This document shows, in pieces, positions 3,089-23,992 of a stretch of 64,000 nucleotides of DNA; positions within the stretch are counted from its first letter, which is position 1, and each line of letters starts with the position of its first letter. The position numbers were made by a program, and so were the translations under genes. Source of the stretch: Lagopus muta (lineage: Eukaryota > Chordata > Aves > Galliformes > Phasianidae); the NCBI RefSeq assembly GCF_023343835.1, contig NC_064437.1, forward strand, positions 5,098,001-5,162,000. Direction: 5' to 3'. The notes under the pieces were generated by a model. It was given only the letters and a program-made list of their open reading frames with translations, ran no database searches and was not told the origin of the DNA.

Positions 3089-3094
3089 TTTATT
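3089..3094 (-). terminator. Poly(A) signal of the two-exon gene, copy 1
   Basis: AATAAA on the minus strand (TTTATT on plus), about 195 bp after the stop codon at 3287. It is preserved in copy 2 (11622-11627) and copy 3 (20135-20140). Confidence 0.55.
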
Positions 3095-3286: not shown

Positions 3287-4701
3287 TCATTGCTCCTTCT
3301 TCCTTTGGCACTGGCAGTTGCTCTTCTTCTGGAGGATCATCACGTATCTGTCCATTAAGAGAAGCAGGGACTTCATCTCACAGAGCTCGTCGTAATAATG
3401 CATGGCTTCTCCTTGCGAGATGTCTGTTCCCGTGGAAGCTGAGTCCATTTGTCCCATTGGTCCCTGGAAGTGAACACAGCATGAGCAGAGACAAAGGGAA
3501 GCAGGCTCCTTTGGCAGGGAATTATCCTGCAGGGCTCGGCTTCCTCTGGAGGCAGGCCAGCCTCACAGGACCGCTCAGTGCAGCACATGGGGCTCACAGC
3601 ACCTCCAAGCCCCACGTTGCATAGGGGCTCCCAGTTGCATAGGGGTGTCAGATCTGCGAATGAGCGAGTCCCTCTGGGGGAGGTAGTGGACTTTCTGGGG
3701 TCTGCTTTCCTTGGAAGCCTTCACGGACCAGGTCTGTGCGGCTCCCTGCTCCCACCAGCAGCCCCCTTCCCGTGCAGTGCACCTCAATCACTCACCTGTT
3801 CCTGAGGTGGTCTTACTTTTCTCCAGAGGCTGCGGGCAATGCTCAGCAGGCAGAGAATGCAGACATCTGTCAGGAGGTGAGGGACGAGCCAGGTTTTCCC
3901 CGCTTGGGCCAGGTAGTCCCAAAGGAGGCCCAGAGGGTAGGGCAAGCTGAGGGCCTTCAGCTTGGTGTACAAGGTCTGCTGCTCTGGGCCCTGCGTTACG
4001 CCAGCCTTGCTGACCCTGGAGCGGATCCACGTGAGGCAGGGGAACAGACCAAGCCTACAGGGGCAGCTGGAGTGCTGGTGCTCGGGGACGACTGGCAGCT
4101 GCTCCTCAGGAAGGACCATCTTCTTGACCCTTTCCCAGATCCCCATTGGGTACGTTGAAAGGCCAGGCTGGAAGGGCCGCTTGAAAGCCTTCTGCCCCAC
4201 GCGCAGGGGCTGCTGCTTTGGGCTCTGCGTTCCGCCAGCCCTGCTGACCCCATATTGCAGCCATGTGGGGCAGGAAGAAAGGCCTAGCCAACAGGGCCCA
4301 TTCGAAGCCTGTTCAGCAGCGATAACAGACTGCTTCTTCTTGGGAAGGACCATGTTGATGACCCTTTCCCAGATCTGAATGCGGTACATTGAAAGTCCCG
4401 ACCAGAAGGGCCCCTGAAAGGCCTTCTGCTCCGTGCCCAGGGGCTGCTGCTTCTGGTCCTCTGTAAAGATCGCTCTTCCGAACATGAAGCTGCCCCATCC
4501 GTGGCGGGGCCAAAGGCCAAGCCAACAGGGCCAGCTGGAGGCCTGGCACTGGGTGTCAACGGTCAGCTGCTCCTCAGGAAGGACCAGCTTTTTGGCCGTG
4601 CCCCAGGCACAGCCAAGAGAGCTGGAACGGCCAAAGCCATCCCAGATAAGTGAAACTATGGCCAGAGCCACAGTCAGGGTGGGAGTCAGGATGAGTTTCA
4701 T
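3287..4701 (-). CDS. Unrecognised two-exon gene, secreted/membrane repeat protein (copy 1)
   Basis: I do not recognise this family. Exon 1 runs 4701 to 3796 (302 codons) and ends in CAG with a GTGAGT donor. Exon 2 runs 3463 to 3287 (58 codons plus TGA) after a TTCCAG acceptor. Both boundaries are phase 0, giving about 360 residues. Residues 1-20 look like a signal peptide (MKL, then a hydrophobic run, then Trp-Asp-Gly). Three tandem repeats of 77-79 residues follow, with equivalent glutamines at 45, 124 and 201. Each repeat carries a PxxxQ start, a C-W/R-L-G-L motif and, in at least two, an IWERV end. Residues about 271-293 are hydrophobic and followed by Arg-Lys, so they may span a membrane. 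Exon 2 adds a Met/Leu-rich helix and a Cys/Lys-rich tail. The ATG at 4701 is preferred because the frame upstream of it has no earlier ATG. An AATAAA lies 195 bp downstream. The gene may instead be non-coding or a recent pseudogene; no homologue could be checked. Confidence 0.5.
3797..4701 (-). repeat. Internal ~235-bp tandem repeats in exon 1 (copy 1)
   Basis: Equivalent points (CTGCTCCTCAGG or its variant on the plus strand) fall at 4099, 4330 and 4567, giving periods of 231 and 237 bp. Both periods are multiples of three, so the reading frame is kept through all repeats. The same repeat occurs alone at 7500-7762 and as a fragment at 26521-26600. Confidence 0.85.
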
Positions 4702-4839
4702 CCTGTTCTCTCCCAAGGAACAATCCAACACACAAAGTGGCTGCTACCTTGAGCGGAGCTCCAGAGGTAACCACCAGTACAGAGCGGCTGCCCTGCGTAT
4801 CTGAGCTGTGGGAGGCTGCCAGCGTGACTGTGCCAAGAC

Positions 4840-4866
4840 TGATGTCATGCCGGCTTTGTGATGTCA
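4840..4866. promoter_or_regulatory. Pair of CRE-like sites upstream of the two-exon gene
   Basis: TGATGTCA occurs at 4840-4847 and again at 4859-4866, about 140-165 bp upstream of the ATG at 4701. The first is confirmed in copy 2 at 13373-13380, and the surrounding sequence is the same in copy 3. TGATGTCA is a one-base variant of the consensus cAMP-response element TGACGTCA. No TATA box is seen nearby. Function is inference only. Confidence 0.3.
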
Positions 4867-5973
4867 CAAAGGAGACTGTGACAGAGCTGGGGAGGACTTG
4901 GAAGCCTGCTGGCACTGCTGCTGTCCCCAGCACAGGACGTTCTGCGCAGCAGGATAGTGGGCCCAAACCCCTCATGTTTTGGGCATTGCCCTGCACTTGT
5001 CAGCAAGAAGGAGCCGTGGCCAGAGCCACATCCAGGCTCCTTTCAGCGCTGGCTCCATTGGGGAAACTGTGACACAACTTGCATCCAAAAGCCTTTGGGG
5101 GCAGAGTGGAAACCCCACCCTTGAGAGGAAAGCCAAGAGTTGAACAGTTGTTAAGGTTGTGTGATGTTTTTTGTTGTCGGTATTCCACATCTTAACATCA
5201 CGTAAAACTGTGTGAGCGAAAGAGTTAACGTTCTGGTTCTGTGGACTGCCTTTTCTGGGCATTTTGGGTTCTCGGAGAGGAGGGAAGGAGCGGCATTCCC
5301 GGAGGACTTTGTGTGCAGAGGAGGAAGGGTGGAGCTGCTGGCAGGATGCAGCCGCTCTCCCTGTGGCTGTTTTGCTCTTTGGGTTCGCTGCGGAGAAAAG
5401 CACGTGGTTCCAAACCTGCAGTCTTCTAGCGTAAGACCTCGTGTTTGCACGCTCTTTTCTCTCTGATTTGCTTGATTTTGTCGGATTTAGTAAATCACCG
5501 TTCCTCCTGAGATTGTTGCCGTGGTTTTTTTCAGTCCCACCTGCTATCTCCCTACCCTTGCCCCCCTCCCCTTCTCCCAGAGCGCACGGCCTGCAAGTGC
5601 CTTGCCTCATTAGTCCCAGGGCTGGGGCCGGCTGGGCTGCGCTGCAAAAGGTGAGCTAGTTTTTTCCCCCCTCTCTTGTCTTCTGTCGCAGACAGAGGTC
5701 TAGGGATAACTCCTGACAACAGTTCACTCAGCACGGCAGCTGTGGCTCTGCCTGACCCAGCTGAGACTCCTTCATCTCAGCGTGTGGAGAACAAGACATC
5801 ACAACCTTACACACACAAGGAAAGTTGTTTGCTAAGTGTTTAAAGTGACTCAATAAATACAAAACCTCTGCCTGTGATATGCCTAATTATATGTCTGTGT
5901 ATGCCTGCATTGTACAGTATGCCTGTATTTTCCTCACATCGAGACACGTAATCAGAATGCAAGGAACATTCAC
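4867..5973. other. Spacer upstream of the two-exon gene
   Basis: No supported gene. A minus-strand open frame of 212 codons (5610-4972) is broken in copy 2 by a ~20-bp deletion, so it is unlikely to code. The stretch 5629-5740 has a diverged relative at 22680-22855. Confidence 0.5.
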
Positions 5974-6078
5974 CTCTGGCTTGTATTCAAACAGGAGTTG
6001 GTCTCCTGTCAGAAAATCCTCCTTCGGAAACAGCTGCAAGCTCTTACACAGTCTTCTCATGTAGTCAGCGGGATCAGT
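5974..6078 (-). pseudogene. NRDC: Isolated nardilysin exon in array copy 1
   Basis: A clean 105-bp exon on the minus strand: a TTTCAG acceptor before 6078, 35 codons in phase 0, and a GAG/GTGAAT donor after 5974. The translation (TDPADY ... LTGDQLLFEYKPE) matches the M16-family metalloprotease nardilysin, in the part just after the catalytic domain. In nardilysin the next exon encodes the ADALSQL-type sequence. In this window that exon is at 26495-26375, upstream on this strand rather than downstream. The exon is therefore displaced and probably not part of a working gene, although its splice sites are intact. Confidence 0.8.
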
Positions 6079-7499
6079 CTGAAAGCAAAACAGTGAAGCT
6101 GTTTTATGCATAACCAAAAATAATAAGACATCAATTTCCTGGTCCGAGCAGATCTCGGAGTAGTCAGGTATGGTGACTGTGAGTTACACGCAGAGTTTGG
6201 GATGGCATTTAGTTTTGGTTATTAAACTAAACGTGTTTCGCAACCGTATCTGACACTGAGGACTCCTGCGAGACTGCCAGAGCATCAGAGACAGCATCTT
6301 CATGAAAGAGACCGTGTGCTTAACAGTCATTACACCTACTGGGTCCTTGTGTCCACAGTTCAAGATTTCAGGGTTTCTAGAACCTGGAAAGAGCAAGCTG
6401 AGGCACTGCACATGCACATATACCTCTGATTTGGCCCCTTCCCAAGCTCTCTAGCATACCGTACAGTACGAGAAGGAAAAGATTTCTCACTTGGACATGA
6501 AAGCATGGCAACTCTGTACAACTGCCTGCCTGGTGGACACTTCCCACTGCGTGCTTGGTTTTGGCTATTGCTTTATTTAAACCAGCCAACGTCATACTGC
6601 AAAGACCCTGGGGTCCAGATAAGGACCACAGCTCCCCCTGAGAGAAGTTTGGCATAGCTGTGTTTTAAAAATGAATCAGAAACAGAACCAAGAATTTCTT
6701 AAGACACTGCACATCTGAGAAACGGCAAAACACAATTACAGCTTGAGCTACAAACACAAAGAACACTAACAAGAACCTCTGAGAATTACATAGATTCCTT
6801 TTGATGGAAATGTCAGGCTTCAAACTGAACGACAACTGCTTGTAATAGTTAAAGACTGAATCATAAAACTGCACATAGGACAACAGACATTGCTGCCATG
6901 TGCACCGTCCCAAATAGCCATCTCTTACAGAGTTTTAGTTCTTCTCCGCTGTTCTACAGAAAGCTTTTGCTAGAAGACTGACAGCTCTACTTTTGTAATA
7001 ATCACATCCTGCTAACAAATTTGTAAGAATTGCACTGCAGTAATAAATAACACCATGCTACACCTTAAAAATGCACTTGGCAATCAGAGTTAACTCATCC
7101 TGTTAAAAAAACATCTGCTGCTCCGTTATGCATTACTTGGGGTTGTCGGCAGCAGTCCTTGCTGTCTGTACCACTTGCAAATATCACTTTCCTCTGTTAT
7201 TCAGAGGCCGCTCAAGACACTCAGTATCCTCCGCGTGCTCTTCTGAAGGCAGAGCTGCAGATGGAAGGATTTGCTACAGATGGTGCTTCCAACATCCCGA
7301 AGCTCCATGCAGACTGGCAGGTGGTAAAAGTGCCTGACCAGACTTGGAGCATCTAGAAAGACAAAATCTCCATTTCCAATACTGCCTGTTCCATTTCTTT
7401 TTGTACTCCTTGTATTTATGTACCTTACAGAAATGAATGAGCTTCAGTGATGTTCCCAAGCCACATACAAAACCTGGACTTGATTTCCCAAAAGTACAT
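6079..7499. other. Array spacer with one weak plus-strand exon candidate
   Basis: No established gene. On the plus strand 7205-7320 is flanked by an ATTCAG acceptor and a CAG/GTGGTA donor and stays open for 38 codons. A part-degraded upstream nardilysin exon was looked for near 6190-6340 and not supported. Confidence 0.5.
7205..7320 (+). other. Possible cryptic coding exon, plus strand (copy 1)
   Basis: A pyrimidine-rich tract and TTATTCAG precede 7205; CAG/GTGGTA follows 7320. The 116-bp segment is open in one frame (2 bases plus 38 codons) and reads as ordinary coding composition. Copy 2 (15718-15833) differs by a Gly-to-Asp change and one synonymous change. The donor is not a strong consensus, the product is unrecognised, and no partner exon was found. 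Confidence 0.25.
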
Positions 7500-7762
7500 T
7501 CTAGTGCCAGTTGGAGTCCTGGTGCTTGGCGACGACTGGCAGCTGCTCCTCAGGAAGGGCCATCTTCCTGACCCTTCCCCAGACCCTCACTGGGTACGTT
7601 GAAAGGCCAGGCCAGGGAAGTCCCCTTGAAGGCCTTCTGCTCCATGCCCTGGTGCTGCTGCTTCGGGCTCTCTGTAACACCGGCCCTGCTGATCCCGTAC
7701 TGGAACCGTCTGGAGCAGGAGGAAAGGTCAAGCCTACAGGGCCAGTTGGAGTCCTGGCCACA
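7500..7762 (-). repeat. Orphan ~235-bp repeat unit, as in the two-exon gene
   Basis: The stretch corresponds to one repeat of the unknown gene's exon 1. On the minus strand it reads the GLSTYP...VLPEEQLPVV-like half in one frame and the SRAGVTESPKQQ-like half in another, so it has a frameshift and cannot code the repeat. It is immediately followed on the plus strand by a CR1-like fragment (7763-7841). The same arrangement is seen at 26521-26640 and in copy 2 at 16013-16275. Confidence 0.75.
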
Positions 7763-7841
7763 GACAGAGGCTGGTGATGAATGGTTCTGTGTCCTGGTGG
7801 AGGCTGGTAACGGACGGCATCTCCCAGGGGTCTGTCTTGCG
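7763..7841 (+). mobile_element. Short CR1 LINE fragment
   Basis: The segment reading GTGATGAATGGTTCTGTG ... CTCCCAGGGGTCTGTCTTG matches the reverse-transcriptase part of the CR1 copy at 26606-26680. It is interrupted after GTCTTG by the LTR-like segment. Confidence 0.6.
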
Positions 7842-8390
7842 TTGGAAATATCCAAATAATTTATCAGGACGGTACTTCTGATAAAGCAGATTTTATTCGC
7901 AATTGCAATGGCGGGTCTCCTGCAAGCAGGAGAGCACCCACAAAACAGTGCTGCATCTTTTTATACCCTGTTGCCCGACGCTTCTCTTTCTCCCCTAGTT
8001 CCTCATTGACTGAGTACTTTAGGTACTTAGTACTTTTCACAATCTTCTCGACGCTTCACTAAACATGCAAACACTGGACAAACATAAATCTTCGCTGGCT
8101 GAGAGTGAATTTTAATTAATTTAATTCAGACCCTCACTCCACCCTTGGTCATTGTTTCTGGATATCTGCTTGTCCTCCCTTCCACCAAGAAGAGCTCAGA
8201 AGGAGGACAGAGGGGAGGATCTTGGTGCCCGCCTGTCACGTCCCAGCCCTCTCACAGCCCGGTGACAGTCTGGCCTTGTGCAGAGGCCCTGGCTTCTGGG
8301 ATGGTTGTTACATCTGTTTTTCTTCTGCTGGGAGTTTCTGATCCTAACAGAACAACCCTACAGTACGTTTTCTAATCCCTAACACTACAC
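7842..8390 (-). mobile_element. Probable solo LTR (minus orientation), copy 1
   Basis: Read on the minus strand this stretch has the layout of an avian endogenous retroviral LTR. A TG-starting end lies near 8390 (TGTTAGGGATTAG-like), a long U3-like part follows, then a TATAAAAAG box at 7965-7957 and an AATAAA signal at 7897-7892, and it ends in a CA-containing stretch near 7842. No internal retroviral genes are attached. Exact ends and target-site duplications could not be fixed. Copy 2 carries the same element at about 16355-16903. Confidence 0.5.
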
Positions 8391-8519
8391 CCACGCTGTT
8401 TGGAACATTTAACAACTACTGCAGTTTTGCAAGAAAGAATTACTCACATAATTCAGCAGTTATGTTTCTAAACCACGCTGCTGACACGTGCAGTATTTCT
8501 GCTTCTTAGGTCAACTATT

Positions 8520-10757
8520 TCAGAATTGTAGAATTCTCCATTCTTGGGGATGTCAAAAGAGTGGCCAGCAAAACTACCTTCTTGAACTTCCAGAGGGCGG
8601 ACTTGGACCTGTTCAGGGCGCTTGCAGCGCGGGTCCCTTGGGAGTCGCTTCTCAAGGGTAAAGGGGCCCAGGAAGCCTGGACGCTGCTCAAGACCGAAAT
8701 CGTAAAGGCGCAAGAACAGGCTGTGCTGAGTGCCGTAAGGTGAGCCGCAGGGGAAGACGACCGGTGTGGGTGAGCCGGGAACTAGTGCTGAGACTCAGGG
8801 AGAAAAAGAGAGTCTACACGCTCTGGAAGAAGGGACAGGCTGCTCAGGGAGATTACAAAGAAGTAGCTAAGGTATGCAGGGAGGAAGTTAGGAAGGCGAA
8901 AGCCCAACTTGAGCTCAGGTTGGCCTCTGCAGTAAAAGACAATAAAAAATCCTTTCATAAATATATCAACAGCAAAAGAAGAACCAAAGATAATTCTCAT
9001 CCTCTACTTGATGCAGCAGGGAATGTGGTCACTGAGGACAAGGAGAGGGCTGAGGTCCTCCATGCCTTCTTTACATCTGCCTTTAACAGCCAGATCAGTT
9101 ATCCTCTGGGCTTTCTATGCCCCGATCTGGAAGTCTGGGACGCTGCTCAGAATATGCCCCCAGCAATTCCAGGGGAGACAGTCAGAGAGCTCATCCTCCG
9201 TCTGGACTGTCACAAGTCCATGGGACCGGATGGGCTGCACCCTCGGGTGCTGAGGGAGCTGGCGGGGGTGATTGCTGAGCCCTTCTCAGCCATCTATCAG
9301 CGCTCCTGGTTAACTGGTGAGGTCCCAGAGGATTGGAGGCTTGCTGATGTGACTCCCATCTTCAAGAAGGGCCGTAAGGAGGATCCGGGGAACTACAGGC
9401 CTGTTAGCCTGACCCTCGGTACCAGGGAAGGTTATGGAGCAAATCATCTTGGATGAGATCGCACGGCATGTGCGCAGTGTCCAGGGGATAAGGCCCAGCC
9501 AGCACGGGTTGGTGAAAGGCAGGTCGTGCTTGACCAACCTCATCTCCTTCTACGACTGGGTGACCAGTCTGGTAGATGAGGGAAGGGCTGTTGACGCAGT
9601 CTTCCCAGGCTTCAGCAAAGCCTTTGACACGGTCCCTCACAGGCTTCTTCTGGGGAAACTGGCTGCCCGTGGTCTGAACAGATATATACACTTCTTTGGG
9701 TAAGGAACTGGCTACAGGGCCGTGCCCAGCGGGTCGTGGTGAACGGAGTGAAGTCCAGCTGGCGACCCGTTTCAAGTGGTGTACCACAGGGGTCGGTACC
9801 GGGGCCCATCCTGTTTAATATCTTTATTGATGACCTAGATGAGGGCATTGAGTGCACCCTCAGTAAGTTTGCAGATGACACCAAGCTGGGAGGTGGTGTC
9901 AATCTGCCTGAGGGTAGGGAGGCCCTTCAGAGGGATTTAGACAGGCTGCACCGCTGGGCTGAGGTGAATGGGATGAGGTTCAACAAGGCCAAGTGCCGGG
10001 TCCTGCACTTTGGGTACAACAACCCCATGCAGCGTTGTAGGCTTGGGGATGAGTGGCTGGATGAGTGTGGAGAAGAGAAGGACCTGGGGGTGTTGGTTGG
10101 TGCTGGGCTGAACATGAGCCCACAGTGTGCCCAGGTGGCCAAGAGGGCCGACGGCATCCTGGCCTGCATTGGAAATGGTGTGGCCAGCAGGAGCAGGGAG
10201 GTGAGCATCCCCCTCTACTTGGCACTGGTGAGGCCGCACCTCGAGTGCTGTGTTCACTTCTGGGCTCCTCACTACAGGAAAGGTGTTGAGGTCCTGGAGC
10301 GTGTCCAGAGAAGGGCAACGAAACTGGTGAGGGGTCTGGAGCACAAGTCTTATGAGGTTCATTAGGGTTCAGTGTGGAGAAGAGGAGGCTCAGGGGAGAC
10401 CTCACTGCACTCTACAATCTCCTGAAGGGAGGTTGTGGACAAGAGGGGTTTGGCCTCTTCTCCCAGGCGACGAGCAGGACACGGGGCAATGGCTGCAAGT
10501 TGTATCAGAGGAGGTTTAGATGAGATGTAAGGAAGAACTTTTTCTCTCAGAGGGTGGTCGGGCACTGCCATGGCCTGCTCAGAGAGGTGGTGGAGTCGCC
10601 GTCCCTGGCAGTGTTCAAGAGGCGTCTGGACGACGTGCTGCGTGATACGGTTTAGTGCTAGTGGTGGCAATGGTGATGAGAAGACGGCTGGACTGGATGA
10701 TCTTGGAGGTCGTTTCTAACCTTGTGATTCTATCATTCTGTGATTCTGTGATTCTAA
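8520..10757 (+). mobile_element. CR1 LINE, 5'-truncated (copy 1)
   Basis: A chicken-repeat-1 retrotransposon. The second open frame is present in pieces: 8740-9456 (the linker and start of the reverse transcriptase, with GPDGLHPRVL and PIFKKG motifs), 9434-9703 ([17 protein letters not shown]), and 9736-10365 (GVPQGS, then the FADDTK catalytic motif at about 9868-9885). Frameshifts and stops separate the pieces, so it is inactive. The 3' end has the CR1 tail of repeated ATTCTGTG-like octamers at about 10728-10757. The 5' end is truncated, as is usual for CR1. Confidence 0.95.
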
Positions 10758-11150
10758 GGATAAGTTACAAATGCATTATGTTCCACTTCTTCAAACTAGC
10801 TGCCCTTTTTAATATCAAATGCAGAAACAACATTCCATTCCTACAACCAGAGCTGCATTGAAGCCCAAGGGATGCAATACGGCAAACAGCCGCGGGCAGC
10901 GGCATCCCGCCTCGTGCCGCCGCCTCAGCCCAACGGCGCGCGCGAGGCCGCAGCGGTCGGCCGTGGCCGCCGCCTCAGGTAGGGCCGCTACCTCAGCTCT
11001 CGCCCCGCAGGCGGCGCTCGTCAGCGCCCCATAGCGAAGGGCCGAGCCCGCCCGCCCCCCCGCAAAGCCCTGCGTTCACCGAACGGCGCTCTGCTCGTGC
11101 CGGGGATGGCGGAGTGCGAACGAGGGCAGAAGCAACCAAGCGAGCAAACT
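10758..11150. other. Array joint and CpG-rich block (copy 2)
   Basis: About 180 bp after the CR1 tail lead into the GC-rich block at 10910-11150, which matches the copy 1 block at 2380-2620. The 34-codon frame starts at 11106 here. A 175-codon minus-strand open frame (11520-10993) exists only in this copy because of single-base indels, and is judged fortuitous. Confidence 0.5.
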
Positions 11151-11819
11151 CGGTCCCTGGCTTTCGTGGCACTGCGCTTCTGGATAGGTTCTGCTTTTCA
11201 GCAGCAGTAAAATTTCCCTGCTCCTCGGCTTTGAAACGTGTGGAGTGTAGAAAAACACAACCCAACCCATTGAGGACAGTACTCAGCAAGTCATGCAGGA
11301 GTTCGGGATCTGGCAGACTCCTGCTCAGGACTAGGAACTTCTGCTGGAAAAGGAACGTGTGCAGGCTTGCTGTACAAGTAGGCGCCTGTACAACGGTATG
11401 CAAACACTGTGCATCTGCAGTTCTCACAAGAGAGCACGCTGCATCGAGCTGGGAGCAGAAGTACTGGTGAAGACTAAGCTGCAGAATTTGTGTGTTCAAG
11501 ACTGGTTGCGTTAAGCTCACAAGGAAATCAATATATGCTGAAAGAACTTGGGCAGGCGGTAGAGTCCTGCAGTTAGTTACACCTGACCTACATTCTCCTC
11601 AGAAATTTTATGCAATCTCACTTTATTTATACATCTGTATGAATGACATAAGATGGCAAGTAACAGACATATTCCAATCATTTGTTCATCACATCGTTGA
11701 TCTTAAAGTTTTGAAGTTTTAGAAGTTTTCCAGGTTGTGCCTTATGGAAGCAGCTGGTGCGCTGTGTGAAGTGGCAAACTGGAGCTGGAAGTGGATGAGG
11801 AGCATCTCAGCTTCCTTGC

Positions 11820-13234
11820 TCATTGCTCCTTCTTCCTTTGGCACTGGCAGTTGCTCTTCTTCTGGAGGATCATCACGTATCTGTCCATTAAGAGAAGCAG
11901 GGACTTCATCTCACAGAGCTCGTCGTAATAATGCATGGCTTCCCCTTGCGAGATGTCTGTTCCCGTGGAAGCTGAGTCCATTTGTCCCATTGGTCCCTGG
12001 AAGTGAACACAGCATGAGCAGAGACAAAGGGAAGCAGGCTCCTTTGGCAGGGAATTATCCTGCAGGGCTCGGCTTCCTCTGGAGGCAGGCCAGCCTCACA
12101 GGACCGCTCAGTGCAGCACATGGGGCTCACAGCACCTCCAAGCCCCACGTTGCATAGGGGCTCCCAGTTGCATAGGGGTGTCAGATCTGCGAATGAGCGA
12201 GTCCCTCTGGGGGAGGTAGTGGACTTTCTGGGGTCTGCTTTCCTTGGAAGCCTTCACGGACCAGGTCTGTGCGGCTCCCTGCTCCCACCAGCAGCCCCCT
12301 TCCCGTGCAGTGCACCTCAATCACTCACCTGTTCCTGAGGTGGTCTTACTTTTCTCCAGAGGCTGCGGGCAATGCTCAGCAGGCAGAGAATGCAGACATC
12401 TGTCAGGAGGTGAGGGACGAGCCAGGTTTTCCCCGCTTGGGCCAGGTAGTCCCAAAGGAGGCCCAGAGGGTAGGGCAAGCTGAGGGCCTTCAGCTTGGTG
12501 TACAAGGTCTGCTGCTCTGGGCCCTGCGTTACGCCAGCCTTGCTGACCCTGGAGCGGATCCACGTGAGGCAGGGGAACAGACCAAGCCTACAGGGGCAGC
12601 TGGAGTGCTGGTGCTCGGGGACGACTGGCAGCTGCTCCTCAGGAAGGACCATCTTCTTGACCCTTTCCCAGATCCCCATTGGGTACGTTGAAAGGCCAGG
12701 CTGGAAGGGCCGCTTGAAAGCCTTCTGCCCCACGCGCAGGGGCTGCTGCTTTGGGCTCTGCGTTCCGCCAGCCCTGCTGACCCCATATTGCAGCCATGTG
12801 GGGCAGGAAGAAAGGCCTAGCCAACAGGGCCCATTCGAAGCCTGTTCAGCAGCGATAACAGACTGCTTCTTCTTGGGAAGGACCACGTTGATGACCCTTT
12901 CCCAGATCTGAATGCGGTACATTGAAAGTCCCGACCAGAAGGGCCCCTGAAAGGCCTTCTGCTCCGTGCCCAGGGGCTGCTGCTTCTGGTCCTCTGTAAA
13001 GATCGCTCTTCCGAACATGAAGCTGCCCCATCCGTGGCGGGGCCAAAGGCCAAGCCAACAGGGCCAGCTGGAGGCCTGGCACTGGGTGTCAACGGTCAGC
13101 TGCTCCTCAGGAAGGACCAGCTTTTTGTCCGTGTCCCAGGCACAGCCAAGAGAGCTGGAACGGCTAAAGCCATCCCAGATAAATGAAACCATGGCCAGAG
13201 CCACAGTCAGGGTGGGAGTCAGGGTGAGTTTCAT
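11820..13234 (-). CDS. Unrecognised two-exon gene, secreted/membrane repeat protein (copy 2)
   Basis: Same structure as the copy at 3287-4701: exon 1 from 13234 to 12329 with a GTGAGT donor, exon 2 from 11996 to 11820 with a TTCCAG acceptor, both phase 0. The poly(A) signal is at 11622-11627. Against copy 1 exon 1 has seven base changes, and all seven alter the residue. Six fall in the first 40 codons (signal peptide and the following stretch) and one is Met-to-Val in repeat 1. Exon 2 has one silent change (GGA/GGG). The exon-1 product is identical to copy 3. Confidence 0.5.
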
Positions 13235-14486
13235 CCTGTTCTCTCCCAAGGAACAATCCAACACACAAAGTGGCTGCTACCTTGAGCGGAGCTCCAGAGG
13301 TAACCACCAGTACAGAGCGGCTGCCCTGCGTATCTGAGCTGCGGGAGGCTGCCAGCGTGACTGTGCCAAGACTGATGTCATGCCGGCTTTGTGATGTCAC
13401 AAAGGAGACTGTGACAGAGCTGGGGAGGACTTGGAAGCCTGCTGGCACTGCTGCTGTCCCCAGCACAGGACGTTCTGCGCAGCAGGATAGTGGGCCCAAA
13501 CCCCTCATGTTTTGGGCATTGCCCTGCACTTGTCAGCAAGAAGGAGCCGTGGCCAGAGCCACATCCAGGCTCCTTTCAGCGCTGGCTCCATTGGGGAAAC
13601 TGTGACACAACTTGCATCCAAAAGCCTTTGGGGGCAGAGTGGAAACCCCACCCTTGAGAGGAAAGCCAAGAGTTGAACAGTTGTTAAGGTTGTGTGATGT
13701 TTTTTGTTGTCGGTATTCCACATCTTAACATCACGTAAAACTGTGTGAGCGAAAGAGTTAACGTTCTGGTTCTGTGGACTGCCTTTTCTGGGCATTTTGG
13801 GTTCTCGGAGAGGAGGGAAGGAGCGGCATTCCCGGAGGACTTTGTGTGCAGAGGAGGAAGGGTGGAGCTGCTGGCAGGATGCAGCCGCTCTCCCTGTTCG
13901 CCGCGGAGAAAAGCACGTGGTTCCAAACCTGCAGTCTTCTAGCGTAAGACCTCGTGTTTGCACGCTCTTTTCTCTCTGATTTGCTTGATTTTGTCGGATT
14001 TAGTAAATCACCGTTCCTCCTGAGATTGTTGCCGTGGTTTTTTTCAGTCCCACCTGCTATCTCCCTACCCTTGCCCCCCTCCCCTTCTCCCAGAGCGCAC
14101 GGCCTGCAAGTGCCTTGCCTCATTAGTCCCAGGGCTGGGGCCGGCTGGGCTGCGCTGCAAAAGGTGAGCTAGTTTTTTCCCCCCTCTCTTGTCTTCTGTC
14201 GCAGACAGAGGTCTAGGGATAACTCCTGACAACAGTTCACTCAGCACGGCAGCTGTGGCTCTGCCTGACCCAGCTGAGACTCCTTCATCTCAGCGTGTGG
14301 AGAACAAGACATCACAACCTTACACACACAAGGAAAGTTGTTTGCTAAGTGTTTAAAGTGACTCAATAAATACAAAACCTCTGCCTGTGATATGCCTAAT
14401 TATATGTCTGTGTATGCCTGCATTGTACAGTATGCCTGTATTTTCCTCACATCGAGACACGTAATCAGAATGCAAGGAACATTCAC

Positions 14487-14591
14487 CTCTGGCTTGTATT
14501 CAAACAGGAGTTGGTCTCCTGTCAGAAAATCCTCCTTCGGAAACAGCTGCAAGCTCTTACACAGTCTTCTCATGTAGTCAGCGGGATCAGT
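14487..14591 (-). pseudogene. NRDC: Isolated nardilysin exon in array copy 2
   Basis: Base-for-base equivalent of the exon at 5974-6078, with the same acceptor, phase and donor. As in copy 1 it has no neighbouring nardilysin exon in the unit. Confidence 0.8.
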
Positions 14592-15717
14592 CTGAAAGCA
14601 AAACAGTGAAGCTGTTTTATGCATAACCAAAAATAATAAGACATCAATTTCCTGGTCCGAGCAGATCTCGGAGTAGTCAGGTATGGTGACTGTGAGTTAC
14701 ACGCAGAGTTTGGGATGGCATTTAGTTTTGGTTATTAAACTAAACGTGTTTCGCAACCGTATCTGACACTGAGGACTCCTGCGAGACTGCCAGAGCATCA
14801 GAGACAGCATCTTCATGAAAGAGACCGTGTGCTTAACAGTCATTACACCTACTGGGTCCTTGTGTCCACAGTTCAAGATTTCAGGGTTTCTAGAACCTGG
14901 AAAGAGCAAGCTGAGGCACTGCACATGCACATATACCTCTGATTTGGCCCCTTCCCAAGCTCTCTAGCATACCGTACAGTACGAGAAGGAAAAGATTTCT
15001 CACTTGGACATGAAAGCATGGCAACTCTGTACAACTGCCTGCCTGGTGGACACTTCCCACTGCGTGCTTGGTTTTGGCTATTGCTTTATTTAAACCAGCC
15101 AACGTCATACTGCAAAGACCCTGGGGTCCAGATAAGGACCACAGCTCCCCCTGAGAGAAGTTTGGCATAGCTGTGTTTTAAAAATGAATCAGAAACAGAA
15201 CCAAGAATTTCTTAAGACACTGCACATCTGAGAAACGGCAAAACACAATTACAGCTCGAGCTACAAACACAAAGAACACTAACAAGAACCTCTGAGAATT
15301 ACATAGATTCCTTTTGATGGAAATGTCAGGCTTCAAACTGAACGACAACTGCTTGTAATAGTTAAAGACTGAATCATAAAACTGCACATAGGACAACAGA
15401 CATTGCTGCCATGTGCACCGTCCCAAATAGCCATCTCTTACAGAGTTTTAGTTCTTCTCCGCTGTTCTACAGAAAGCTTTTGCTAGAAGACTGACAGCTC
15501 TACTTTTGTAATAATCACATCCTGCTAACAAATTTGTAAGAATTGCACTGCAGTAATAAATAACACCATGCTACACCTTAAAAATGCACTTGGCAATCAG
15601 AGTTAACTCATCCTGTTAAAAAAACATCTGCTGCTCCGTTATGCATTACTTGGGGTTGTCGGCAGCAGTCCTTGCTGTCTGTACCACTTGCAAATATCAC
15701 TTTCCTCTGTTATTCAG

Positions 15718-15833
15718 AGGCCGCTCAAGACACTCAGTATCCTCCGCGTGCTCTTCTGAAGGCAGAGCTGCAGATGGAAGGATTTGCTACAGATGATGCT
15801 TCCAACATCCCGAAGCTCCACGCAGACTGGCAG
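15718..15833 (+). other. Possible cryptic coding exon, plus strand (copy 2)
   Basis: Counterpart of 7205-7320, open in the same frame with the same flanking AG and GT. One missense and one silent change separate the two. Confidence 0.22.
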
Positions 15834-16012
15834 GTGGTAAAAGTGCCTGACCAGACTTGGAGCATCTAGAAAGACAAAATCTCCATTTCCAATACTGCCT
15901 GTTCCATTTCTTTTTGTACTCCTTGTATTTATGTACCTTACAGAAATGAATGAGCTTCAGTGATGTTCCCAAGCCACATACAAAACCTGGACTTGATTTC
16001 CCAAAAGTACAT

Positions 16013-16275
16013 TCTAGTGCCAGTTGGAGTCCTGGTGCTTGGCGACGACTGGCAGCTGCTCCTCAGGAAGGGCCACCTTCCTGACCCTTCCCCAGACCCT
16101 CACTGGGTACGTTGAAAGGCCAGGCCAGGGAAGTCCCCTTGAAGGCCTTCTGCTCCATGCCCTGGTGCTGCTGCTTCGGGCTCTCTGTAACACCGGCCCT
16201 GCTGATCCCGTACTGGAACCGTCTGGAGCAGGAGGAAAGGTCAAGCCTACAGGGCCAGTTGGAGTCCTGGCCACG
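16013..16275 (-). repeat. Orphan ~235-bp repeat unit (copy 2)
   Basis: Counterpart of 7500-7762, again frameshifted in the middle and joined to a CR1 fragment on its right. Confidence 0.72.
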
Positions 16276-16354
16276 GACAGAGGCTGGTGATGAATGGTTC
16301 TGTGTCCTGGTGGAGGCTGGTAACGGACGGCATCTCCCAGGGGTCTGTCTTGCG

Positions 16355-16903
16355 TTGGAAATATCCAAATAATTTATCAGGACGGTACTTCTGATAAAGC
16401 AGATTTTATTTGCAATTGCAATGGCGGGTCTCCTGCAAGCAGGAGAGCACCCACAAAACAGTGCTGCATCTTTTTATACCCTGTTGCCCGACGCTTCTCT
16501 TTCTCCCCTAGTTCCTCATTGACTGAGTACTTTAGGTACTTAGTACTTTTCACAATCTTCTCGACGCTTCACTAAACATGCAAACACTGGACAAACATAA
16601 ATCTTCGCTGGCTGAGAGTGAATTTTAATTAATTTAATTCAGACCCTCACTCCACCCTTGGTCATTGTTTCTGGATATCTGCTTGTCCTCCCTTCCACCA
16701 AGAAGAGCTCAGAAGGAGGACAGAGGGGAGGATCTTGGTGCCCGCCTGTCACGTCCCAGCCCTCTCACAGCCCGGTGACAGTCTGGCCTTGTGCAGAGGC
16801 CCTGGCTTCTGGGATGGTTGTTACATCTGTTTTTCTTCTGCTGGGAGTTTCTGATCCTAACAGAACAACCCTACAATACGTTTTCTAATCCCTAACACTA
16901 CAC
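16355..16903 (-). mobile_element. Probable solo LTR (copy 2)
   Basis: Counterpart of the LTR-like segment at 7842-8390. It keeps the minus-strand TATAAAAAG box and AATAAA signal. Its presence at the same place in both copies shows it inserted before the duplication. Confidence 0.5.
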
Positions 16904-17032
16904 CCACGCTGTTTGGAACATTTAACAACTACTGCAGTTTTGCAAGAAAGAATTACTCACATAATTCAGCAATTATGTTTCTAAACCACGCTGCTGACAC
17001 GTGCAGTATTTCTGCTTCTTAGGTCAACTATT

Positions 17033-19268
17033 TCAGAATTGTAGAATTCTCCATTCTTGGGGATGTCAAAAGAGTGGCCAGCAAAACTACCTTCTTGAAC
17101 TTCCAGAGGGCGGACTTGGACCTGTTCAGGGCGCTTGCAGCGCGGGTCCCTTGGGAGTCGCTTCTCAAGGGTAAAGGGGCCCAGGAAGCCTGGACGCTGC
17201 TCAAGACCGAAATCGTAAAGGCGCAAGAACAGGCTGTGCTGAGTGCCGTAAGGTGAGCCGCAGGGGAAGACGACCGGTGTGGGTGAGCCGGGAACTAGTG
17301 CTGAGACTCAGGGAGAAAAAGAGAGTCTACACGCTCTGGAAGAAGGGACAGGCTGCTCAGGGAGATTACAAAGAAGTAGCTAAGGTATGCAGGGAGGAAG
17401 TTAGGAAGGCGAAAGCCCAACTTGAGCTCAGGTTGGCCTCTGCAGTAAAAGACAATAAAAAATCCTTTCATAAATATATCAATGGCAAAAGAAGAACCAA
17501 AGATAATTCTCATCTTCTACTTGATGCAGCAGGGAATGTGGTCACTGAGGACAAGGAGAGGGCTGAGGTCCTCCATGCCTTCTTTACATCTGCCTTTAAC
17601 AGCCAGATCAGTTATCCTCTGGGCTTTCTATGCCCCGATCTGGAAGTCTGGGACGCTGCTCAGAATATGCCCCCAGCAATTCCAGGGGAGACAGTCAGAG
17701 AGCTCATCCTCCGTCTGCACTGTCACAAGTCCATGGGACCGGATGGGCTGCACCCTCGGGTGCTGAGGGAGCTGGCGGGGGTGATTGCTGAGCCCTTCTC
17801 AGCCATCTATCAGCGCTCCTGGTTAACTGGTGAGGTCCCAGAGGATTGGAGGCTTGCTGATGTGACTCCCATCTTCAAGAAGGGCCGTAAGGAGGATCCG
17901 GGGAACTACAGGCCTGTTAGCCTGACCCTCGGTACCAGGGAAGGTTATGGAGCAAATCATCTTGGATGAGATCGCACGGCATGTGCGCAGTGTCCAGGGG
18001 ATAAGGCCCAGCCAGCACGGGTTGGTGAAAGGCAGGTCGTGCTTGACCAACCTCATCTCCTTCTACGACTGGGTGACCAGTCTGGTAGATGAGGGAAGGG
18101 CTGTTGACGCAGTCTTCCCAGGCTTCAGCAAAGCCTTTGACACGGTCCCTCACAGGCTTCTTCTGGGGAAACTGGCTGCCCGTGGTCTGAACAGATATAT
18201 ACACTTCTTTGGGTAAGGAACTGGCTACAGGGCCGTGCCCAGCGGGTCGTGGTGAATGGAGTGAAGTCCAGGTGGTGACCCGTTTCAAGTGGTGTACCAC
18301 AGGGGTCGGTACCGGGGCCCATCCTGTTTAATATCTTTATTGATGACCTAGATGAGGGCATTGAGTGCACCCTCAGTAAGTTTGCAGATGACACCAAGCT
18401 GGGAGGTGGTGTCAATCTGCCTGAGGGTAGGGAGGCCCTTCAGAGGGATTTAGACAGGCTGCACCGCTGGGCTGAGGTGAATGGGATGAGGTTCAACAAG
18501 GCCAAGTGCCGGGTCCTGCACTTTGGCACAACAACCCCATGCAGCGTTGTAGGCTTGGGGATGAGTGGCTGGATGAGTGTGGAGAAGAGAAGGACCTGGG
18601 GGTGTTGGTTGGTGCTGGGCTGAACATGAGCCCACGGTGTGCCCAGGTGGCCAAGAGGGCCGACGGCATCCTGGCCTGCATTGGAAATGGTGTGGCCAGC
18701 AGGAGCAGGGAGGTGAGCATCCCCCTCTACTTGGCACTGGTGAGGCCGCACCTCGAGTGCTGTGTTCACTTCTGGGCTCCTCACTACAGGAAAGGTGTTG
18801 AGGTCCTGGAGCGTGTCCAGAGAAGGGCAACGAAACTGGTGAGGGGTCTGGAGCACAAGTCTTACGAGGTTCATTATGGTTCAGTGTGGAGAAGAGGAGG
18901 CTCAGGGGAGACCTCACTGCACTCTACAATCTCCTGAAGGGAGGTTGTGGTCAAGAGGGGTTTGGCCTCTTCTCCCAGGCGACGAGCAGGACACGGGGCA
19001 ATGGCTGCAAGTTGTATCAGAGGAGGTTTAGATGAGACGTAAGGAAGAACTTTTTCTCTCAGAGGGTGGTCGGGCACTGCCATGGCCTGCCCAGAGAGGT
19101 GGTGGAGTCTCCGTCCCTGGCAGTGTTCAAGAGGCGTCTGGACGACGTGCTGCGTGATACGGCTTAGTGCTAGTGGTGGCAATGGTGATGAGAAGACGGC
19201 TGGACTGGATGATCTTGGAGGTCGTTTCTAACCTTGTGATTCTATCATTCTGTGATTCTGTGATTCTA
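17033..19268 (+). mobile_element. CR1 LINE, 5'-truncated (copy 2)
   Basis: Counterpart of 8520-10757. It has further damage: a TGA replaces a codon near 18275, and there is a small deletion near 18526 before the PMQRC-like segment. The FADD motif and octamer tail are present. Confidence 0.93.
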
Positions 19269-19665
19269 AGGATAAGTTACAAATGCATTATGTTCCACTT
19301 CTTCAAACTAGCTGCCCTTTTTAATATCAAATGCAGAAACAACATTCCATTCCTACAACCAGAGCTGCATTGAAGCCCAAGGGATGCAATACGGCAAACA
19401 GCCGCGGGCAGCGGCATCCCGCCTCGTGCCGCCGCCTCAGCCCAACGGCGCGCGCGAGGCCGCAGCGGTCGGCCGTGGCCGCCGCCTCAGGTAGGGCCGC
19501 TACCTCAGCTCTCGCCCCGCAGGCGGCGCTCGTCAGCGCCCCATAGCGAAGGGCCGAGCCCGCCCGCCCCCCCGCAAAGCCCTGCGTTCACCGAACGGCG
19601 CTCTGCTCGTGCCGGGGATGGCGGAGTGCGAACGAGGGCAGAAGCAACCAAGCGAGCAAAGTCGG
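19269..19665. other. Array joint and CpG-rich block (copy 3)
   Basis: Repeats the copy 2 joint at 10758-11150, including the GC-rich block. The 34-codon frame starts at 19618 and has one Thr-to-Ser change. Confidence 0.5.
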
Positions 19666-22600
19666 TCCCTGGCTTTCGTGGCACTGCGCTTCTGGATAGG
19701 TTCTGCTTTTCAGCAGCAGTAAAATTTCCCTGCTCCTCGGCTTTTGAAACGTGTGGAGTGAAGAAAAACACAACCCAACCCATTGAGGACAGTACTCAGC
19801 AAGTCATGCAGGAGTTCGGGATCTGGCAGACTCCTGCTCAGGACTAGGAACTTCTGCTGGAAAAGGAACGTGTGCAGGCTTGCTGTACAAGTAGGCGCCT
19901 GTACAACGGTATGCAAACACTGTGCATCTGCAGTTCTCACAAGAGAGCACGCTGCATCGAGCTGGGAGCAGAAGTACTGGTGAAGACTAAGCTGCAGAAT
20001 TTGTGTGTTCAAGTCTGGTTGCGTTAAGCTCACAAGGAAATCAATATATGCTGAAAGAACTTGGGCAGGCGGTAGAGTCCTGCAGTTAGTTACACCTGAC
20101 CTACATTCTCCTCAGAAATTTTATGCAATCTCACTTTATTTATACATCTGTATGAATGACATAAGATGGCAAGTAACAGACATATTCCAATCATTTGTTC
20201 ATCACATCGTTGATCTTAAAGTTTTGAAGTTTTAGAAGTTTTCCAGGTTGTGCCTTATGGAAGCAGCTGGTGCGCTGTGTGAAGTGGCAAACTGGAGCTG
20301 GAAGTGGATGAGGAGCATCTCAGCTTCCTTGCTCATTGCTCCTTCTTCCTTTGGCACTGGCAGTTGCTCTTCTTCTGGAGGATCATCACGTATCTGTCCA
20401 TTAAGAGAAGCAGGGACTTCATCTCACAGAGCTCGTCGTAATAATGCATGGCTTCCCCTTGCGAGATGTCTGTTCCCGTGGAAGCTGAGTCCATTTGTCC
20501 CATTGGTCCCTGGAAGTGAACACAGCATGAGCAGAGACAAAGGGAAGCAGGCTCCTTAGGCAGGGAATTATCCTGCAGGGCTCGGCTTCCTCTGGAGGCA
20601 GGCCAGCCTCACAGGACCGCTCAGTGCAGCACATGGGGCTCACAGCACCTCCAAGCCCCACGTTGCATAGGGGCTCCCAGTTGCATAGGGGTGTCAGATC
20701 TGCGAATGAGCGAGTCCCTCTGGGGGAGGTAGTGGACTTTCTGGGGTCTGCTTTCCTTGGAAGCCTTCACGGACCAGGTCTGTGCGGCTCCCTGCTCCCA
20801 CCAGCAGCCCCCTTCCCGTGCAGTGCACCTCAATCACTCACCTGTTCCTGAGGTGGTCTTACTTTTCTCCAGAGGCTGCGGGCAATGCTCAGCAGGCAGA
20901 GAATGCAGACATCTGTCAGGAGGTGAGGGACGAGCCAGGTTTTCCCCGCTTGGGCCAGGTAGTCCCAAAGGAGGCCCAGAGGGTAGGGCAAGCTGAGGGC
21001 CTTCAGCTTGGTGTACAAGGTCTGCTGCTCTGGGCCCTGCGTTACGCCAGCCTTGCTGACCCTGGAGCGGATCCACGTGAGGCAGGGGAACAGACCAAGC
21101 CTACAGGGGCAGCTGGAGTGCTGGTGCTCGGGGACGACTGGCAGCTGCTCCTCAGGAAGGACCATCTTCTTGACCCTTTCCCAGATCCCCATTGGGTACG
21201 TTGAAAGGCCAGGCTGGAAGGGCCGCTTGAAAGCCTTCTGCCCCACGCGCAGGGGCTGCTGCTTCGGGCTCTGCGTTCCGCCAGCCCTGCTGACCCCATA
21301 TTGCAGCCATGTGGGGCAGGAAGAAAGGCCTAGCCAACAGGGCCCATTCGAAGCCTGTTCAGCAGCGATAACAGACTGCTTCTTCTTGGGAAGGACCACG
21401 TTGATGACCCTTTCCCAGATCTGAATGCGGTACATTGAAAGTCCCGACCAGAAGGGCCCCTGAAAGGCCTTCTGCTCCGTGCCCAGGGGCTGCTGCTTCT
21501 GGTCCTCTGTAAAGATCGCTCTTCCGAACATGAAGCTGCCCCATCCGTGGCGGGGCCAAAGGCCAAGCCAACAGGGCCAGCTGGAGGCCTGGCACTGGGT
21601 GTCAACGGTCAGCTGCTCCTCAGGAAGGACCAGCTTTTTGTCCGTGTCCCAGGCACAGCCAAGAGAGCTGGAACGGCTAAAGCCATCCCAGATAAATGAA
21701 ACCATGGCCAGAGCCACAGTCAGGGTGGGAGTCAGGGTGAGTTTCATCCTGTTCTCTCCCAAGGAACAATCCAACACACAAAGTGGCTGCTACCTTGAGC
21801 GGAGCTCCAGAGGTAACCACCAGTACAGAGCGGCTGCCCTGCGTATCTGAGCTGCGGGAGGCTGCCAGCGTGACTGTGCCAAGACTGATGTCATGCCGGC
21901 TTTGTGATGTCACAAAGGAGACTGTGACAGAGCTGGGGAGGACTTGGAAGCCTGCTGGCACTGCTGCTGTCCCCAGCACAGGACGTTCTGCGCAGCAGGA
22001 TAGTGGGCCCAAACCCCTCATGTTTTGGGCATTGCCCTGCACTTGTCAGCAAGAAGGAGCCGTGGCCAGAGCCACATCCAGGCTCCTTTCAGCGCTGGCT
22101 CCATTGGGGAAACTGTGACACAACTTGCATCCAAAAGCCTTTGGGGGCAGAGTGGAAACCCCACCCTTGAGAGGAAAGCCAAGAGTTGAACAGTTGTTAA
22201 GGTTGTGTGATGTTTTTTGTTGTCGGTATTCCACATCTTAACATCACGTAAAACTGTGTGAGTGAAAGAGTTAACGTTCTGGTTCCGTGGACTGCCTTTT
22301 CTGGGCATTTTGGGTTCTCGGAGAGGAGGGAAGGAGCGGCATTCCCGGAGGACTTTGTGTGCAGAGGAGGAAGGGTGGAGCTGCTGGCAGGATGCAGCCG
22401 CTCTCCCTGTGGCTGTTTTGCTCTTTGGGTTCGCCGCGGAGAAAAGCACGTGGTTCCAAACCTGCAGTCTTCTAGCGTAAGACCTCGTGTTTGCACGCTC
22501 TTTTCTCTCTGATTTGCTTGATTTTGTCGGATTTAGTAAATCACCATTCCTCCTGAGATTGTTGCCGTGGTTTTTTTCAGTCCCACCTGCTATCTCCCTA

Positions 22601-22675
22601 CCCTTGCCCCCCTCCCCTTCTCCCAGAGCGCACGGCCTGCAAGTGCCTTGCCTCATTAGTCCCAGGGCTGGGGCT
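19448..22675. repeat. Tandem array copy 3, truncated
   Basis: The copy matches copies 1 and 2 almost perfectly up to about 22675 (equivalent to 5629 in copy 1). It contains the CpG block and the complete two-exon gene but lacks the nardilysin exon, LTR and CR1. Beyond 22675 the match continues to about 22855 with much lower identity and then ends. Confidence 0.92.
20333..21747 (-). CDS. Unrecognised two-exon gene, secreted/membrane repeat protein (copy 3)
   Basis: Exon 1 from 21747 to 20842, exon 2 from 20509 to 20333, same splice signals and phases as the other copies, poly(A) signal at 20135-20140. The exon-1 protein is identical to copy 2; one DNA difference in repeat 2 is silent. This copy lies in the truncated unit but the whole gene and about 900 bp upstream of its ATG are retained. 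Confidence 0.5.
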
Positions 22676-22855: not shown

Positions 22856-23149
22856 CGCATAACTTCAAGCCCTTAACACAATCCTGTGGCCCAAAGCACA
22901 GCCCAACCGACTGCCTTGGGATGTTTTTCTGCTCCACGGAGCTCCTACAGAACTGCTCCCAGGCACCAGCTTGCTGGGGAGGACACACGTCCCCTGCAGA
23001 TTTCCCAGGGTGTCCTGGAGGACTTCAAGGGATCCTCAGTATACCCTAGGGCAAACCTGAGTGCCCCCAGAGCTCCGCAGTGTGGTCTAGGGCACCCTAG
23101 AGGCTCCTCTGAACAGGCCAGTGTAACTGTATCAGAGTAGATGACTCTA
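22856..23149. other. Spacer, nothing recognised
   Basis: Unique sequence between the array and the decayed exon-1 fragment; no coding or repeat signal seen. Confidence 0.5.
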
Positions 23150-23377
23150 CCGACCCAGAGGCTGCCCCATCTGTGGCAGGGCCAAAGGTGAAGCCAACAG
23201 GGCCAGCTGGAGGCCTGGCACTGGGTGTCAACGGGCAGCTGCTCCTCAGGAAGGACCAGCTTTTTGTCCGTGTCCCAGACCCAGCCATGAGAGCTGGAAT
23301 GGCCAAGGCCATCCCAGATAAATGAAACTATGGACAGAGCCACAGTCAAGAGTCAGGGTGATTTTCATCCTGTTCAA
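23150..23377 (-). pseudogene. Decayed 5' fragment of the unknown two-exon gene
   Basis: On the minus strand this matches the first ~70 codons of exon 1 of the array gene, including the SFIWDG and KKLVLPEEQ stretches. A small deletion and insertion near 23350 shift the frame after MKITLT. It stops within the first repeat unit. It directly abuts a nardilysin exon at 23378. Confidence 0.75.
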
Positions 23378-23528
23378 GTTGCCTTGCATGAGACCCTCTA
23401 CAAACAGCTGTGCCTCGAAAGCCTCAACAAAGGATGTGAGAGCCTCAGTGGAAAGGCCCTTCATCAGTGTCTGGTACTTGTCTATCATGGACCACCTGCC
23501 ATGTTCTAAAATCAGGAGACGCACATCC
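23378..23528 (-). pseudogene. NRDC: Nardilysin exon, donor lost
   Basis: A TTTATTGCAG acceptor precedes 23528. The first base G completes the AAG codon of the previous exon. The translation runs DVRLLILE ... LFVEGLMQGN, a region of nardilysin in the C-terminal half. At 23378, where a GT donor is expected, the sequence continues TTGAACAGGATGAAA into the unknown-gene fragment. The splice donor is gone, so normal splicing onwards is not possible. Confidence 0.85.
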
Positions 23529-23864: not shown

Positions 23865-23992
23865 TTGGCCAGAGTCTCAGGCTTGATAAGGATATTGAAA
23901 TATGTTTTCTTCAGCTGCTCTGTTATCATTTCAAAAACTGCTGGAGTAAAGCTGAAGTCAGTCAAGTAATCAATGATGAGCTGAAACAGAAG
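23865..23992 (-). pseudogene. NRDC: Nardilysin exon, intact
   Basis: 128 bp: a TTTACAG acceptor before 23992, 42 codons plus two bases, and a GTGAGT donor. The translation LLFQLIIDYL ... LIKPETLA matches nardilysin. Phase 2 at the donor fits the next exon exactly. Confidence 0.88.

Follow-up and report, generated by a model that had tools for sequence, protein, structure and literature searches.

What kind of locus is the tandem array found on contig NC_064437.1 of the rock ptarmigan (Lagopus muta), where three long frames with a signal-peptide-like start recur on the minus strand, and are these frames genes at all? We analysed a stretch of 64,000 nucleotides around it (positions 5,098,001 to 5,162,000, hereafter the window), together with related loci of the same genome and with protein databases. 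The frames almost certainly belong to a real protein-coding gene family, as they are kept open in diverged paralogues beyond chance. Judging from sequence comparison, this family is larger and older than the window array and is already partly predicted in databases; it is an undescribed family of a known evolutionary kind. As to what it does, a diversifying family of type I surface proteins, most likely on germ cells, is the overall reading we favour, with an even chance of being right.

Each window copy has two exons. The three minus-strand copies of the initial annotation, with their exons, GTGAGT donor, TTCCAG acceptor and matching phase, were correct in all coordinates, and the intron of about 330 base pairs (bp) and the AATAAA about 195 bp past the stop are close to the values measured in copy 1:

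3796-4701, minus strand: exon 1 of copy 1, 906 nucleotides, 302 codons, read from the sequence
3464-3795, minus strand: intron of copy 1, 332 bp, GTGAGT...TTCCAG
3287-3463, minus strand: exon 2 of copy 1, 58 codons and a TGA stop; nine named relatives have a similar tail from this junction on
3089-3094, minus strand: AATAAA poly(A) signal of copy 1, about 192 bp past the stop, read from the sequence
12329-13234, minus strand: exon 1 of copy 2, from the coordinate check
11997-12328, minus strand: intron of copy 2, from the coordinate check
11820-11996, minus strand: exon 2 of copy 2, from the coordinate check
20842-21747, minus strand: exon 1 of copy 3, from the coordinate check
20510-20841, minus strand: intron of copy 3, from the coordinate check
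20333-20509, minus strand: exon 2 of copy 3, from the coordinate check

The joined frame encodes 360 amino acids in all three copies, with the donor in phase 0. That three copies are all open had been offered as evidence for the gene, but copies 2 and 3 differ by one nucleotide in exon 1 and one in the intron, and copies 1 and 2 by seven in exon 1, one in exon 2 and none in the intron; being recent near-identical duplicates, they count as roughly one observation and carry little weight alone. All seven exon-1 changes between copies 1 and 2 are nonsynonymous, and the single exon-2 change is synonymous. Six of the seven amino-acid differences fall in the first 36 codons of exon 1, that is in the putative signal peptide and just after it.

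The family had been presented as one of this array, a view that does not hold, given further loci on two large contigs and relatives in seven species of fowl and waterfowl. A DNA search of the genome returned at least 68 matches on contigs C8 (5.07, 5.10-5.12 and 5.77 Mb) and C1 (53.9-54.0, 57.4, 164.9 and 191.0 Mb), a lower bound, the search having scored the best 40 of 53 first-look candidates. Subfamilies are labelled W (window copies, on C8), C8b (the other C8 array) and C1a, C1b, C1c and C1d (contig C1), and all counts of copies cover the window and 17 stretches fetched around the DNA matches. A first frame scan, which used no promoter feature and required an MK or MR start, yielded nine full-length family frames (three in the window, three in C8b, one in C1b and two in C1c) and six truncated or shifted frames with a family-like start. 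A second scan was anchored on a tandem upstream element (see below; up to two mismatches) and is blind to intact copies that lack it; it found 17 elements (three in the window, three in C8b, seven in C1a, one in C1b, two in C1c and one in C1d), 16 of which lead at 156-166 bp to an intact family frame, the C1d one being broken, and it added seven C1a genes with an MD start. Complete two-exon genes make up 11 of the 16 intact frames (three in the window, seven in C1a and one in C1b), and many other family pieces in C1a and C8b are broken. The intron measures 322-332 bp and has the same donor phase in the window, C1a, C1b and C1c, C8b keeping a phase-0 donor; the exon junction is present at the W, C1a, C1b and C1c loci.

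The evidence that the frame is coding comes from five subfamily representatives, chosen from nine models built. The ten exon-1 pairs differ by 178-404 substitutions (28-47% of aligned sites) and contain no stop on either side once C8b2 and C1c2 are trimmed at their own stops, which precede the donor by 7 and 2 codons. Were these substitutions scattered at random, 6-11 stops would be expected, and between 0 and 3 of 2000 simulations per pair stayed stop-free. Exon 2 alone gives a weaker signal (131-293 of 2000 simulations stop-free, in three pairs). Gap lengths are multiples of three in 46 of 54 exon-1 gaps, and 31 of 51 intron gaps are 1 bp long. Chance frames or a non-coding repeat are unlikely given this maintenance of the frame and the relatives in other birds.

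Other identities were considered and rejected. The family protein has no reverse transcriptase or endonuclease domain in a Pfam scan, which speaks against a retroelement product, and all three window copies, like the subfamily models, retain the intron, which speaks against a processed retrocopy. No known domain family emerged at the cut-off from the Pfam and PDB searches: the window protein matched no Pfam-A family at E ≤ 1, relatives P0030, P0012 and P0036 had no Pfam match, P0018 had matches below the curated cut-off only, and the PDB chain search gave a single match that is not significant (E 0.049). Chicken hepatic NADB-LER genes were weighed as an earlier description, and in the available part of that report they lie on chromosomes 11 and 21 and have neither signal peptide nor membrane span (PMC7136477).

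Relatives in other galliforms, where the initial annotation had proposed to look for the locus, were found in turkey, prairie chicken (Tympanuchus), quail and chicken. A protein search with the window protein gave 14 matches, headed by Tympanuchus LOC128072728 (92% identity over the full length, E 7e-223) and including turkey LOC109364181 (71% identity, E 5e-163) and quail LOC107314721; a profile search gave 20 and added chicken LOC121106537. A profile of short forms, which scored the best 7995 candidates by shared words, had at least 26 matches and reached waterfowl, namely mute swan (LOC121071506 and LOC121074392), goose (an Anser cygnoides protein) and duck (LOC101800573 and Anapl_05242). 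Among the matches listed there are 38 distinct relatives, nine of them species-named and from seven fowl or waterfowl species, and none is named outside Galloanserae, although such searches cannot prove absence. All nine are labelled uncharacterized or hypothetical, with neither family name nor assigned function, and open-licence papers searched by gene id or peptide string gave no description of the gene family. The claim that no family with this layout is known therefore stands as far as Pfam and the literature found are concerned, but its members were already present in databases as "uncharacterized" or "hypothetical" proteins.

Exon 2, described as hidden from a simple frame search, is genuine; all nine named relatives pass into an exon-2-like tail at the same junction (read by eye), in phase 0 and after the basic stop, with exon 2 starting G/E-x-G-Q/R-like and bearing a SAS-like motif. 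Many unnamed contig proteins read through into the intron as ...VS, which indicates that the same donor is present there. Stops in the same frame in related birds, which had been named as contrary evidence, are absent from the nine named relatives, but two subfamilies of the ptarmigan genome itself stop before the donor. Named waterfowl members have a single module and galliform members several, so that the module expansion looks galliform.

The signal-peptide-like start, hydrophobic segment and basic tail noticed at first sight agree with both hydropathy and model helices. Hydropathy gives a hydrophobic N-terminal start and a second peak at residues 271-289, followed by RSLWRKVR; in the structure model of the 360-residue Tympanuchus protein, helices span 5-22, 271-302 and 318-359, most of the middle is disordered, and the mean predicted local distance difference test (pLDDT) score is 40. 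The model of a swan short form has the same helix order (mean pLDDT 49). In these predictions the protein reads as a signal peptide, disordered Trp/Cys/Pro repeats, a membrane helix and a helical tail, and a type I membrane topology, predicted from hydropathy and model helices, is probable. The "three repeats" of the initial annotation are present, their correct description being an internal period of 234 bp (78 codons), which holds for the window and C8b; in C1b and C1c the period is 114 bp. Repeats turn over, the C8b frames being 370 and 292 codons long (78 apart) and those of C1c 471 and 433 (38 apart), and these steps match the periods of 234 and 114 bp. Exon 1 was searched for N-glycosylation motifs in six models, and none has one. 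KKEQ is the C-terminus of both the window and the Tympanuchus protein; we take it to fit KKxx, the dilysine motif by which proteins are returned to the endoplasmic reticulum. The tails of turkey and quail do not fit KKxx.

Upstream of each window copy lies a tandem element resembling the cyclic AMP response element (CRE):

4835-4868, minus strand: tandem CRE-like element (two TGACATCA) of copy 1, conserved in aligned subfamilies
13368-13401, minus strand: tandem CRE-like element of copy 2, from a motif scan
21881-21914, minus strand: tandem CRE-like element of copy 3, from a motif scan

The arrangement TGTGACATCACA...TGACATCA is common to six aligned copies representing all five subfamilies, about 156-166 bp before the ATG. 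All nine full-length ptarmigan frames from the promoter-blind scan have the element, 165-166 bp upstream, and the six truncated or shifted frames do not; the window holds three elements, against none in 100 shuffles. TGACATCA is the reverse complement of TGATGTCA, which the available part of one report gives as a functional CRE variant of lower affinity (PMC1796609). The same part places most mammalian CREs no more than 150 bp from the start site; it gives a bias of TGATGTCA towards start sites for human, mouse and rat, and for chicken a bias of the canonical TGACGTCA only (PMC1796609). The conserved element suggests that the family genes may be controlled by CREB/ATF/CREM-type factors. Testis is one setting for such factors; among open-licence papers, none was found tying TGACATCA to testis, CREM and promoter.

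Exons and non-coding parts have diverged at different rates. Introns are 69-79% identical among subfamilies and the 150 bp before the ATG 71-99%, similarity being lost at 150-400 bp upstream save between the two C8 arrays. Mean exon divergence, scaled to that of the intron and calculated for five representatives over 130 gap-free codons outside the repeats, with bootstrap intervals, was 1.92 at codon position 1 (95% interval 1.54-2.46), 1.35 at position 2 (1.07-1.72) and 1.44 at position 3 (1.14-1.84), and in the same comparison the CpG content of the exons was not above that of the intron. Window copy 2 and C8b copy 2 are 99.3% identical over the 150 bp before the ATG, and their first 48 codons have a nonsynonymous divergence (dN) of 0.229 and a synonymous divergence (dS) of 0.082. 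For exon 2, pairwise omega-type (dN/dS) values above 1 are frequent, but they come from short alignments and are noisy. The fast third positions would be explained by gene conversion that keeps introns alike, and the sequence pattern suggests that such conversion may have kept the non-coding parts alike; positive selection on the exons is possible.

Taken together, each window copy is a gene with both exons complete, whose product would be a secretory-pathway protein of type I membrane topology, with a cleavable signal peptide at about residues 1-22, a flexible ectodomain of Trp/Cys/Pro modules, a single membrane helix at about 271-293, then a basic stretch acting as stop-transfer sequence, and a cytosolic tail that is helical and supplied by exon 2. 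A short promoter with two tandem CRE-like sites would drive transcription via CREB/ATF/CREM-type factors. Whole genes would duplicate in arrays on two large contigs while many copies decay, a birth-and-death process with in-frame gain and loss of modules and with fast replacement of amino acids in a frame that persists. Fast change, a kept frame and this pattern of duplication and decay fit a surface protein engaged in a conflict over recognition; germ cells, either sperm or egg, would be its most likely site, and immunity a less likely setting. Membrane topology, binding factors, tissue and role are what we infer from these patterns, and a reproductive rather than another role falls slightly short of an even chance. 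The most detailed version, a membrane-anchored module-repeat family of fowl and waterfowl with a double-CRE promoter, in which recombination would homogenize non-coding parts and selection diverge exons, serving gamete or immune recognition from arrays on two chromosomes, we advance tentatively as somewhat doubtful in its entirety.

Several results weigh against this reading. A reproductive role rests on the evolutionary pattern and on CRE-like sites, which are not tissue-specific, and both structure models are of low confidence (mean pLDDT 40 and 49). Positive selection is not proved: the codon-model omega is 0.744, below 1, and recent changes pooled over four close pairs (the C1c pair excluded) are 38 nonsynonymous to 8 synonymous, not clearly above the neutral expectation of roughly 3:1; nor does positive selection alone explain third codon positions that change faster than the intron. 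In 5 of the 16 intact frames, the three C8b and two C1c copies, a stop precedes the donor by 7 or 2 codons (taken from gene models for C8b1, C8b2 and both C1c copies, and from the frame and element scans for the third C8b copy), and in C8b no open exon 2 of at least 40 codons follows the donor; a shorter protein that lacks exon 2 may have arisen on two occasions, in C8b (L009-L010) and in C1c (L021). Past about its first 13 codons exon 2 is poorly conserved among subfamilies. The other eight of the 54 exon-1 gaps (e.g., of 359 and 11) have lengths not divisible by three; every one occurs in a comparison that involves C1a2, and we attribute them to gaps misplaced in repeats. Finally, no Lagopus-named protein appeared in the three protein searches (single-sequence, profile and short-form profile). 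NCBI, according to the available part of the assembly report, annotated the rock ptarmigan genome with RNA-seq that included testes (PMC10320755). The missing match may count somewhat against expression; it may also mean that no coding gene was called at the locus or that the protein is absent from the database.

Some of these observations suit other explanations. Fast exon evolution, repeat turnover, arrays and broken copies would fit immune families equally, and CRE/ATF sites also serve stress and immune genes; a surface protein of the same architecture, diversifying in conflict with pathogens in lymphoid or epithelial tissue, is nonetheless unlikely, as neither the window protein nor four relatives show a known domain at the Pfam cut-off and the ectodomain is predicted to be disordered. 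C1 copies bring to mind a multi-copy peptide precursor, whose modules would release small disulphide-looped peptides after cleavage at basic pairs. In C1b the basic pairs are regular, four RK pairs each exactly 38 residues from the next, and in C1c nearly so, with six KK/RK sites at intervals of 33-39; C-x6-C cores (like WLCWLGLTSCP) lie between them, and the protein has a signal-peptide-like start. The modules of the window and C8b, however, have no regular basic pairs between them, the second Cys is missing from one of the three cores in the window, and a C-terminal hydrophobic segment with a basic stop would be unusual in a soluble precursor, all of which makes this reading quite improbable.

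Lineage-specific genes kept mainly by duplication, weakly constrained and devoid of important function, would drift through nearly neutral birth and death, and the omega of 0.74, pooled recent changes that are near neutral and the many broken copies are what such drift would leave. It is hard to reconcile with frames and splice sites kept in subfamilies that are 28-47% diverged, with a junction kept in waterfowl and with an element that accompanies full-length frames and was not found at truncated ones, and we consider it an unlikely account. That the locus does not code for protein, the frames having arisen by chance in a duplicated repeat or lying in a non-coding RNA locus, is very improbable: coding status is read from sequence, protein searches returned no Lagopus-named protein, the intron is more conserved than the exons and a reverse-transcriptase frame lies within the array, yet diverged frames are free of stops and relatives in seven species share the junction. 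A diversifying surface protein family remains our preferred reading of the locus.

Within the window, the genes are accompanied by broken family pieces:

2383-22725: tandem array, about 2.4 units of about 8.5 kb, about 99% identical
7504-7825, minus strand: broken piece of a family gene, in unit 1, from sequence comparison
16017-16338, minus strand: broken piece of a family gene, in unit 2, from sequence comparison
22990-23352, minus strand: broken 5' piece of a family gene, adjoining a nardilysin-like exon, from sequence comparison
26482-26598, minus strand: short broken piece of a family gene, from sequence comparison

The statement that every copy of the array carries the gene holds for three complete genes; the array itself has about 2.4 units and also contains broken pieces of it. 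Exons that we take to be nardilysin (NRDC)-like occupy 23372-26564 on the minus strand and at about 23360 meet a broken family-gene piece; two of them, joined, match Peptidase_M16_M (E 9e-11), others were recognized by eye, and the exon at 23372-23527 by itself has no Pfam match. A further nardilysin-like stretch (TDPADYM...), read by eye, lies within an array unit (5890-6183, minus strand), which suggests that a rearranged partial nardilysin copy may travel with the gene family. Both full array units contain plus-strand retroelement frames (8740-10365 and 17253-17969), presumably CR1-like, and a Pfam scan placed the reverse transcriptase domain RVT_1 in the plus-strand frame at 9736-10365, which is separate from the family gene. 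Frames of 212 codons lie upstream of copies 1 and 3 (4972-5610 and 22018-22656, minus strand); the former has no Pfam match at the cut-off, and copy 2 has no listed frame of at least 200 codons there. Outside the array, a minus-strand frame at 36570-37388 has a DM DNA-binding domain (PF00751, E 5e-22), its nearest solved structure being DMRT1. Beside the chromosome-1 array lie an exon of a 5'-nucleotidase-domain gene (PF05761; L025, C1:54016001-54024000), which we assume to be NT5DC-like, and, likewise next to that array, reverse-transcriptase-like and, by eye, retroviral-looking frames (L024, C1:53918001-53926000). A search of open-licence papers by locus neighbours found no description of the gene family.

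Poultry genomes are among the best studied, yet no Pfam model covers this family, of which a single grouse genome holds at least 16 intact frames. It offers a concrete junction, an upstream element and a set of loci, and the way it evolves marks it as a candidate for a part in avian sperm-egg recognition or immunity; more generally, diverged paralogues within one genome provide a check on genes that simple frame searches miss.

Comparison with known systems places the family more closely. Named Galloanserae relatives have the same start, core modules, membrane segment and exon junction as the window protein, the turkey and quail relatives differing in their longer tails. Like CRE-driven vertebrate promoters, the full-length copies carry two TGACATCA upstream of the coding start, which are candidate binding sites with distances measured to the ATG. 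The closest parallel in mode of evolution is offered by snake-venom phospholipase A2 genes, a fast-evolving tandem family whose introns are more conserved than its exons. The ptarmigan genes differ from them in an omega below 1 and a product that is probably membrane-bound, and no sequence relation is known, none having been sought; the likeness is one of pattern, with exons that outpace both the intron and the 5' flank in genes arranged in tandem arrays.

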